NCBI GenBank assembly: GCA_000237975.1
Contig: CP003179.1
Span: 124,001 to 188,000 of the forward strand
Direction of reading: 5' to 3'
DNA: 64,000 bases
Source of the DNA: Sulfobacillus acidophilus DSM 10332
Lineage (GTDB): Bacteria > Bacillota > Sulfobacillia > Sulfobacillales > Sulfobacillaceae
Part shown: positions 11,197 to 12,711 of the stretch, piece after piece
Layout: each line of letters opens with the position of its first letter
Position numbering within the stretch: position 1 is the stretch's first letter
Notes under the pieces: model-generated
Database searches by the model: none
What the model saw: the letters and a program-made list of their open reading frames with translations, nothing else
Told to the model about the DNA's origin: nothing
Program-made: the position numbers and the translations under genes

Positions 11197-11596
11197 CCCA
11201 ATCGATACCGCCTAAATCTTGACGTAGTCGGGCTTCCGGCACATAGCCCCGGCGGCGGTAAAACGCTTCCGCACGACTGTCGGCATACGTGCGCAAGGTG
11301 ACTTTATGGCATCCCTGGTCCCACGCCGCGTTTTCGAAGGTTTCCAGCAGCGCGCGACCAATGCCGACGGTGCTCCGCTAGGCGGGGATCACGACCAATT
11401 GCCGGACGGTGGCCACGCCTGTGATAATCTCGCCCTATAGGGCGCCCACCCGTCGGTCGTTCACCCAGGCGTCGAACGCTAAAGAGACGGGCGCCCAATC
11501 GGGCCGATAGCCGAAATGCTCCTGTTCGACGTCATCCCAGGCCGCCTCTAAAAAGGCGGCCAAGACCGACGTTCGGGCCGTTCGGATGTCGATCAT
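11162..11596 (-). pseudogene. GNAT N-acetyltransferase interrupted by two in-frame TAG codons
   Basis: From ATG 11596, preceded by AAAGGAGA, the frame encodes a GNAT fold without any frameshift: an N-terminal half ending FDAWVNDRRVGAL, the strand VRQLVVIPA, the acetyl-CoA loop RSTVGIGRALLE, and the late strand AFYRRRGYVPEA. Two TAG codons interrupt it, at 11435-11437 (codon 54) and 11378-11380 (codon 73). Each could come from CAG by one C-to-T change. The 3' end overlaps the convergent glycosyltransferase-like gene. Nearby genes such as recR end normally at TAG, so general TAG recoding is unlikely and recent pseudogenisation is the simplest reading. Confidence 0.8.
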
Positions 11597-11615: not shown

Positions 11616-11650
11616 GCCCCGAGGCTTTTGGCCCCGGGGCGTATTTTTTA
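11616..11650 (+). terminator. Strong hairpin with T-tract between glutaredoxin and GNAT sequences
   Basis: GCCCCG (11616-11621) pairs with CGGGGC (11635-11640), and GGC pairs with GCC inside, with one mismatch. GTATTTTTTA follows on the plus strand, so it would terminate rightward transcription, perhaps read-through from the soe operon. On the minus strand it has no T-tract. Confidence 0.5.
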
Positions 11651-11848
11651 GTCAAGACCCAACAAGGTTTTCAGCCGCCGCCGGTCAAAGCCGATCAGGA
11701 CCGAGCCGTTGAAGCGAATGACCGGAATGCCCCGTTCGCCCCGGCTCAGTCGCCGGGCTTCTTGGCGATTGGCGGCGTCTTCGAGCGGATGGTCAATATA
11801 GAAAAAGCCGTTTTGCGAAAGAAACTCTTTCGTCCCGTTACACACACT
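11648..11848 (-). CDS. Glutaredoxin domain in frame after a TGA: candidate selenoprotein or nonsense-broken gene
   Basis: Reading the minus strand without a break from the RluA-like gene, the sequence is DLYTAPT, TGA (11849-11851), then SVCNGTKEFLSQNG. This is the glutaredoxin strand and active site with the first cysteine of CxxC replaced by TGA. The rest of the fold follows, including RGIPVIRFNGSVLIGFD and LKTLLGLD before TAA. Without readthrough, translation would need a new start (GTG 11845) and would lack the redox site. Possible explanations are selenocysteine insertion (UxxC), a nonsense mutation, or a sequencing error. A hairpin that fits the bacterial SECIS rules lies downstream. Nearby GNAT sequence carries two more nonsense codons, which favours decay. 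Confidence 0.55.
   Translation of the reverse strand, partial: SVCNGTKEFLSQNGFFYIDHPLEDAANRQEARRLSRGERGIPVIRFNGSVLIGFDRRRLKTLLGLD
11816..11832 (-). promoter_or_regulatory. Candidate bacterial SECIS hairpin
   Basis: On the minus strand CGAAAG and CTTTCG form a perfect 6-bp stem with loop AGTTT. The loop starts 22 bases after the TGA and has G as its second base. Published bSECIS rules ask for an apical loop 16-37 bases from the UGA with a G in the first two loop positions, so it qualifies. A 6-bp stem with a 5-base loop is not rare by chance. Confidence 0.35.
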
Positions 11849-12436
11849 TCACGTGGGGGCCGTATAAAGGTCTATCTCGGGCAGTACGATGCGGTGGCCA
11901 AATCCTGCGGTTAGCCGTCGATAGGGGGTGGGCACTTCCACTTCATAGGCGTAAAACGTGGCGGGCGCTTCCGGATCCCCCAGCCAATCGGCGGCTAGTT
12001 GGGCGGTATCCCCAAGCGTGGCGTCAATATCATAGACGGTTATCGGTCCGTACGAGCGGGAATCGACCACCGTCACCGAAGGCGTGGTGTGCGGTACCAG
12101 AGTCTCCGGCACCTGCACGCGGTAACGAAAACGCCAGGCTCCATCCTGATGTGACTGTCGCAGCGATTCGGCGGTCTCGTCGGTTTTGGCTACCACGGTC
12201 ACCCCGCGATCTTGCCGTCGGAGCGTGTGAATCACCCCAGGACGAAGACTGGTTTCCATTTCCGCCAACCAGCGATTCGATTGTAAAAGCGCATTGACCA
12301 GCGTATCGTCTTGAAGGATCTCCTCCGGAAACGTCTCAAGTCCCGCCGGTTTATCGGCCACCAAAAAGGTTGGTCCTTCATACCACAGCACGATAGATCG
12401 CTGGGGATTGACCGGAATCAACGGGATTTTCTCCAA
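11849..12436 (-). CDS. RluA-family pseudouridine synthase-like protein lacking the catalytic Asp
   Basis: 195 residues to the TGA. The N-terminal part has the RluA signature LVADKPAGLETFP near residues 25-37. Where active enzymes carry HRLDxxTSG, this protein has IHTLRRQDRGVTVVAK, so the catalytic Asp is Arg73. It is also shorter than typical RluA proteins. The start is TTG 12436, ten bases after GAGGAGGT and just after in-frame stops. Loss of the Asp suggests a non-catalytic RNA-binding role or a decaying paralogue. The coding frame continues directly into glutaredoxin sequence after the TGA, so the two may form one 262-residue protein if the TGA is decoded. Confidence 0.65.
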   Translation of the reverse strand: MEKIPLIPVNPQRSIVLWYEGPTFLVADKPAGLETFPEEILQDDTLVNALLQSNRWLAEMETSLRPGVIHTLRRQDRGVTVVAKTDETAESLRQSHQDGAWRFRYRVQVPETLVPHTTPSVTVVDSRSYGPITVYDIDATLGDTAQLAADWLGDPEAPATFYAYEVEVPTPYRRLTAGFGHRIVLPEIDLYTAPT

Positions 12437-12711
12437 TCATCAAGCACCTCCTCGGCGGCCCGTGTTTCATATTCGAAACGCATAAACACGCCTGAAATAT
12501 TTAGGTCGCGAAATTTCTTGCGATACAAAAATGTTGTCCGGTGAAGACGTTGCTGCGATTGACCAGAACAGAGGAGCAGTTCACCAGAAATTGCTGACCA
12601 TTCGCGGCGAATGTCTCGTGACCCGGTTCACTTGCCGCGTACCATGAGCATAGCAGAATTCTCTTATCACAGCATGGGTAGACGAACGGCTTCTCTGGGA
12701 GGGAATCAGAC

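Follow-up and report, generated by a model that had tools for sequence, protein, structure and literature searches.

Selenocysteine glutaredoxins (Sec-Grx) are an already known selenoprotein family (PMC13188914). Their fold is that of glutaredoxins (PF00462) and their active site is UxxC, as in cGrx1 of Clostridium (Alkaliphilus) oremlandii, and by description they are small oxidoreductases. A selenocysteine-bearing glutaredoxin-like domain, sometimes fused to another domain, is also present in the NCBIfam families Uxx-star (NF041212) and HUGP/GUXX-star (NF045501), and the single-domain profile of the YruB-family glutaredoxin-like protein (TIGR02196) spans 74 positions with no fusion. The published bSECIS model has a loop of 3–9 nt, a stem of 4–16 bp and a spacing of 16–37 nt from the UGA, with a G in the first two loop positions (PMC13188914). 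The loop follows the pattern N1-G-[G/U]-N-N2, in which N1 pairs with N2 (PMC13188914).

The gene described here shares the UxxC active site and fold of Sec-Grx and has them C-terminally, in a protein of two domains. The N-terminal domain resembles the pseudouridine synthases RluA, RluD and RluC (TIGR00005, PF00849) in fold and in the order of motifs. The architecture, an RluA fold followed by a selenocysteine glutaredoxin, is the new part, since Sec-Grx and fusions of glutaredoxin-like selenoproteins such as HUGP/GUXX-star were already known. A literature search for a fusion of pseudouridine synthase, selenocysteine and glutaredoxin led to a single paper, on archaeal methionine sulfoxide reductases. 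The papers that were searched contained no pseudouridine-synthase fusion, and the word "pseudouridine" is absent from the main text of PMC13188914 and PMC12013277. The gene would add a selenoprotein family whose fusion partner is missing from the catalogues checked.

The reading frame and its two domains

The window, the whole stretch of 64,000 nucleotides that was analysed (C1:124001-188000), belongs to a host genome of 3,557,831 bases in two contigs. The following features were assigned, with positions numbered within the window:

11648-12436, minus strand: whole predicted selenoprotein gene, 262 codons with the putative selenocysteine codon inside, and a final TAA (11650-11648)
12446-12453, minus strand: Shine-Dalgarno-like GAGGAGGT, seen on direct reading of the sequence, 9 nt upstream of the TTG
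12436-12434, minus strand: probable start codon TTG
11882-12388, minus strand: N-terminal RluA/RluD-fold domain, about residues 17-185, from the structure model, RluD matches and profile alignment
12254-12277, minus strand: NRWLAEME motif inside the RluA-like domain, residues 54-61, invariant in 24 of 24 aligned rows, Bacilli included
11849-11851, minus strand: UGA codon of residue 196, predicted to encode selenocysteine at the first position of the U-S-V-C motif
11816-11832, minus strand: putative bSECIS hairpin CGAAAGA-GUU-UCUUUCG, a 6-bp stem plus a closing A-U pair
11651-11878, minus strand: C-terminal glutaredoxin domain, residues 187-262, PF00462 above gathering score

Translation and domain matches show the minus-strand frame 12436-11648 to be a single gene encoding an RluA-fold domain and then a glutaredoxin domain. 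It translates as ...DLYTAPT*SVCNGTKEFLSQNGFFYIDH...LKTLLGLD* and contains a single internal stop, the TGA at 11851-11849, which is residue 196 of 262 and occupies exactly the position of the first Cys of the glutaredoxin CxxC. The TTG was chosen as the start because the similarity of the homologues begins at that same residue. An earlier note on this DNA had described an RluA-like frame that runs through DLYTAPT-TGA into a whole glutaredoxin fold, with the TGA at the first catalytic cysteine, and both statements are borne out by the translation, the Pfam matches and the exchange of Cys and TGA among homologues. On sequence comparison, this UGA "stop" almost certainly codes for a selenocysteine in the active site of a redox protein. 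Reading with the standard table 11 truncates the fusion gene at its active site in the window genome and its relatives. Just downstream of the fusion gene, positions 11197-11596 of the minus strand hold a GNAT acetyltransferase pseudogene with one in-frame TAG and one in-frame TGA.

The glutaredoxin domain matches Pfam Glutaredoxin (PF00462) over residues 190–245 with 30.9 bits, above the gathering score of 22.9. The closest solved structures are those of cGrx1 (7c10 and 7c12; 37–39% identity, Z 11.8–12.6), which we take to be natively a selenocysteine protein of C. oremlandii. Position 196 (Cys or selenocysteine), Cys199 and the pair Ile237-Pro238 are invariant in the 24-row alignment. The gene reaches no NCBIfam cut-off. 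The best NCBIfam match of its glutaredoxin domain is TIGR02196 (44.5 bits, under the cut-off of 88.55), and the scores are 36 bits for NF041212 (cut-off 66) and 23.5 bits for NF045501 (cut-off 325). The latter profile is matched only in the glutaredoxin part, and therefore the fusion partner differs.

The similarity of the N-terminal domain to pseudouridine synthases is below the thresholds of both family profiles, at 22 bits against 26.8 for PF00849 (PseudoU_synth_2, residues 24–110) and 36.6 against 192.7 bits for TIGR00005. A structure model of the two-domain protein, based on the 24-row alignment, has a mean pLDDT of 92.2 and a pTM of 0.89. Its N-terminal domain matches RluD structures with Z 15.4–15.7 (at best 191 residues aligned, rmsd 4.6), and RluA and RluC match too.

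Homologues, selection and the hairpin

Homologues were sought in 101 relatives and, by one scan, in 84,980 species genomes. With duplicates removed, this gave 28 distinct full-length homologues including the window gene, most of them from metagenome-assembled genomes (MAGs). The other 27 have a span in common with the window gene. The fusion is no single case but belongs to a small conserved family. Twenty-six members are from the order of the window organism, and two are from the Bacillaceae Terrihalobacillus insolitus and Bacillus pinisoli (34–35% identity, TGA in both). The codon at the selenocysteine position is TGA in 22 of the 28 genes, TGC in six, and never any other. Beside the window gene, 21 homologues with 34–62% identity have the TGA at the identical codon, and the 26 genes from the window's order contain no further in-frame stops. 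The alignment of orthologues that the earlier note had proposed as a check thus yields TGA or Cys at one codon of the same uninterrupted fusion. The contrary outcome that it had named, an intact Cys with a separate start, was not seen, since all six TGC genes are single fused reading frames. The Sec/Cys label needs three changes on the tree of the 28 sequences, and the exchange therefore occurred more than once; as the root of the tree is not fixed, the changes are counted without direction. With 22 selenocysteine and six cysteine versions, the former retaining the SECIS hairpin and the latter having lost it, the family offers a natural comparison of the two residues.

Full-length SelA is present in 33 of 37 genomes of the family and order. 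Three of the four genomes lacking it (G003, G012 and G036) also lack the fusion. The exception is G017, a MAG of 400 contigs that contains a TGA gene, where the absence of SelA is likely an assembly gap. Both Bacillaceae genomes contain SelA. Among 398 genomes from across the phylum, full-length matches were found only in G000 and G002, and 397 genomes from the order of one Bacillaceae member provided only the two Bacillaceae genes already in the set. The family therefore looks narrow at such sampling, and among the genomes searched the combination of RluA-like and glutaredoxin domains occurs only in sulfobacilli and two bacilli. The Bacillaceae loci (L088 6001-6804 and L089 6001-6786) are TGA members of the family with no others in the 397-genome sample of the order, and their isolation suggests horizontal transfer or wide loss.

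The sequence after the TGA is under purifying selection, with a constraint at least equal to that of the upstream part. Close pairs of TGA genes have dN/dS values of 0.02–0.17 downstream of the codon, and the median pN/pS of 190 pairs is 0.36 downstream versus 0.44 upstream. Differences at the three codon positions are distributed as 0.37/0.27/0.63 upstream and 0.30/0.23/0.60 downstream.

The 6-bp hairpin to which the earlier note had pointed is present and agrees with the published bSECIS model, including the N1-G-[G/U]-N-N2 loop. It reads CGAAAG-AGUUU-CUUUCG, and its loop starts 22 nt after the UGA, or 23 nt if the loop-closing A-U pair is counted. The folding energy of the window hairpin alone is unremarkable (z = 0.25), and the case for the hairpin is therefore comparative. 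An equally good bSECIS-like stem appeared in only 11 of 2000 synonymous recodings of the window gene alone. The TGA genes contain a small loop 19–23 nt after the codon on a stem of 5–13 bp, mostly ACGAAAG-AGUUU-CUUUCGU. Their mean stem score is 7.85, compared to 3.81 (sd 0.23) for synonymous recodings, none of which matched it in 1000 attempts. The TGC genes score 3.58 against 3.43 when recoded, which was matched by 374 of 1000 recodings and is at chance level. The stem signal is therefore tied to TGA, as expected of a SECIS: the hairpin is kept in TGA genes and gone in TGC genes.

The recoding test is independent of the alignment used for covariation, in which ten variants of the element were cut by hand around the loop; that alignment therefore leans towards the hairpin. 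In it, two-sided changes occur in six of eight pairs and 92.5% of the cells pair. None of the 500 shuffles and none of the slid versions reaches its covariation score. The N1:N2 pair covaries from A-U to C-G. Codons +6 to +11 after the TGA have the highest synonymous conservation among 194 six-codon windows (0.864, mean 0.412). In homologues L049 and L058 the same loop is located one nucleotide earlier on a different stem, and the amino acids are changed (KSFLT for KEFLS), so that the protein sequence seems to follow the needs of the RNA element.

Selenocysteine machinery and further UGA genes

All four components for which the earlier note had proposed a genome search were found. The matches score 472 bits for SelA, 339 bits for SelB, which is above its cut-off, 357 bits for SelD, and 73 bits for a tRNA-Sec with anticodon UCA that was also called by ARAGORN. 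The SelD gene (L030, C1:1401608-1402540, plus strand) has its own UGA at the active-site position (SKSG-U-GCK; SGUGCK motif), with a hairpin after it. In Sulfobacillus thermotolerans, the selenocysteine peroxiredoxin PrxU is raised in the proteome of ore-grown cells (PMC7409299), which suggests that selenocysteine is in use in the genus.

At least two further redox genes of the genome have a UGA at a Cys position of a CxxC motif, a small glutaredoxin and a PDO-type protein. A search of the genome for glutaredoxins retrieved three genes of this fold with one in-frame TGA each, the fusion gene included. The second glutaredoxin gene (L003 1501-1674, plus strand, C1:1997754-1997927) contains the TGA at the first Cys (VYVQPG-U-HAC), and by its sequence probably encodes another selenoprotein. 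The PDO-type protein (L005, C1:1555736-1555909, minus strand) has two thioredoxin domains and a TGA at the first Cys of the C-terminal CxxC (VFVTPT-U-PYC). It scores 184.3 bits with TIGR02187 "PDO_seleno_TRX", for which the cut-off is 185.

The genome also encodes a 95-nt tRNA-Cys(GCA) with a long variable arm (L009 1497-1591, minus strand, C1:1007562-1007656), which scores 56.2 bits with the Rfam tRNA-Sec model (gathering score 47). Fifteen other genomes of the family contain matches to it with 72–97% identity, mostly over the whole length. It is similar to the selC-like tRNA-Cys described in the review PMC7609411, where Sulfobacillus is not named.

Rival readings and proposed function

A plain nonsense mutation or a sequencing error could have split an ordinary cysteine fusion and left the downstream frame as a decaying remnant, and the earlier note had warned that such a mutation explains the data. 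The frame has only one in-frame stop, its hairpin is thermodynamically ordinary, and two stops lie in the next gene, which the earlier note had counted against the selenocysteine reading. Those two stops are real, but they belong to the separate GNAT pseudogene and therefore have no bearing on the fusion gene. A remnant would not have its TGA repeated at the same codon in 21 diverged homologues with an intact and constrained downstream part, nor a covarying hairpin limited to TGA genes, in a genome with the full selenocysteine system. The homologues refute the mutation for the family, and for the window gene it is effectively excluded. We give equally little credence to two separate proteins, an RluA-like frame stopping at the TGA and a glutaredoxin-like protein restarting at the GTG at 11845. 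That start codon is located shortly past the TGA, but a product begun there would miss both the first Cys of the active site and the initial strand of the fold, and the TGA codon is never TAA or TAG in the 28 homologues. The separate restart was rejected on the homologue and RNA evidence. The UGA might also be a regulated stop, so that a 195-residue RluA-like protein is the main product and the fusion is formed by selenocysteine read-through when selenium is plentiful. The decoding of selenocysteine is always in competition with termination, and the UGA comes right after the end of the N-terminal domain. However, the UGA is located inside the glutaredoxin fold rather than in a linker, and the short product would have the first glutaredoxin strand as a tail. 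The six TGC homologues make the fusion constantly, and so in them it is the fusion that functions. A regulated stop is thus very improbable. A selenocysteine-decoded fusion of RluA-like and glutaredoxin domains that acts as a redox protein is, on these comparisons, the reading that we hold with high confidence.

Within this selenocysteine fusion, the RluA-like domain could still be an active RNA-modifying enzyme that employs a different chemistry or a shifted Asp. Pseudouridine synthases have their catalytic residue in the HRLD motif, where it is the Asp (D64 in RluA, D139 in RluD). The profile alignment to RluD runs through GIVHRLDKDTTGLMVVAK, the region of the HRLD motif, and places the catalytic Asp in the column of residue 73. 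This residue is Arg in the window protein; of the 24 rows, 23 have R, M, A, E or H there and one has Asp. Asp76 and Gly78, three and five residues past the lost position, are invariant in the 24 rows and could offer a substitute, and His70 and Tyr105 are conserved almost throughout, as is the fold. In contrast, in an alignment made by eye, Asp or Asn at position 143 (G142-D143-T144) apparently stands where the GR-T motif has its basic residue. The family has thus lost the catalytic Asp of RluA, RluD and RluC and gained the NRWLAEME motif. Without that Asp, the domain probably does not function as a pseudouridine synthase, and we consider retained RNA-modifying activity improbable. The proposal of a new RluA-like/Sec-glutaredoxin fusion in the earlier note therefore holds for the fusion and for the selenocysteine reading, with the refinement that the RluA-like part lacks the catalytic Asp. 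An enzyme fold kept beside a redox domain after the loss of its catalytic residue provides a testable case.

Based on the exchange of UGA and Cys codons, the SECIS hairpin and the selenocysteine machinery, from which we infer insertion of selenocysteine at residue 196, a mechanism can be proposed. SelB would bind the hairpin 17–33 nt after the UGA and deliver Sec-tRNA-Sec to the codon. Translation would continue past the UGA into the glutaredoxin domain with its U-S-V-C active site, resulting in one selenoprotein of approximately 29 kDa. As the glutaredoxin fold and the conservation of the UxxC and Ile-Pro motifs imply, the selenolate of Sec196 may attack a substrate disulfide or other oxidised thiol, and Cys199 may resolve the mixed selenosulfide. 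The N-terminal domain, perhaps still binding RNA or the ribosome, would position the redox domain. The whole protein is likely a selenothiol-disulfide reductase with a former pseudouridine-synthase domain as a docking module, to judge from its motifs. Taken by itself, the role of the RluA-like domain in docking or substrate recognition is a tentative proposal, made because the fold is kept and the catalytic Asp is lost. We speculate, with considerable doubt, that the inactive pseudouridine-synthase domain still attaches to rRNA, tRNA or the ribosome and so brings the selenocysteine redox centre to that site. If so, sulfobacilli, which live in acid, metal-rich habitats, would own a selenium-dependent device for repair or redox sensing on the translation machinery.

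The gene neighbourhoods are not conserved across the relatives and give no pointer to the substrate. According to neighbour names read off the sequences by eye, the fusion gene has various neighbours elsewhere, and it adjoins genes of malate synthase and isocitrate lyase in the window and in some relatives (L072, L078 and, in part, L079).
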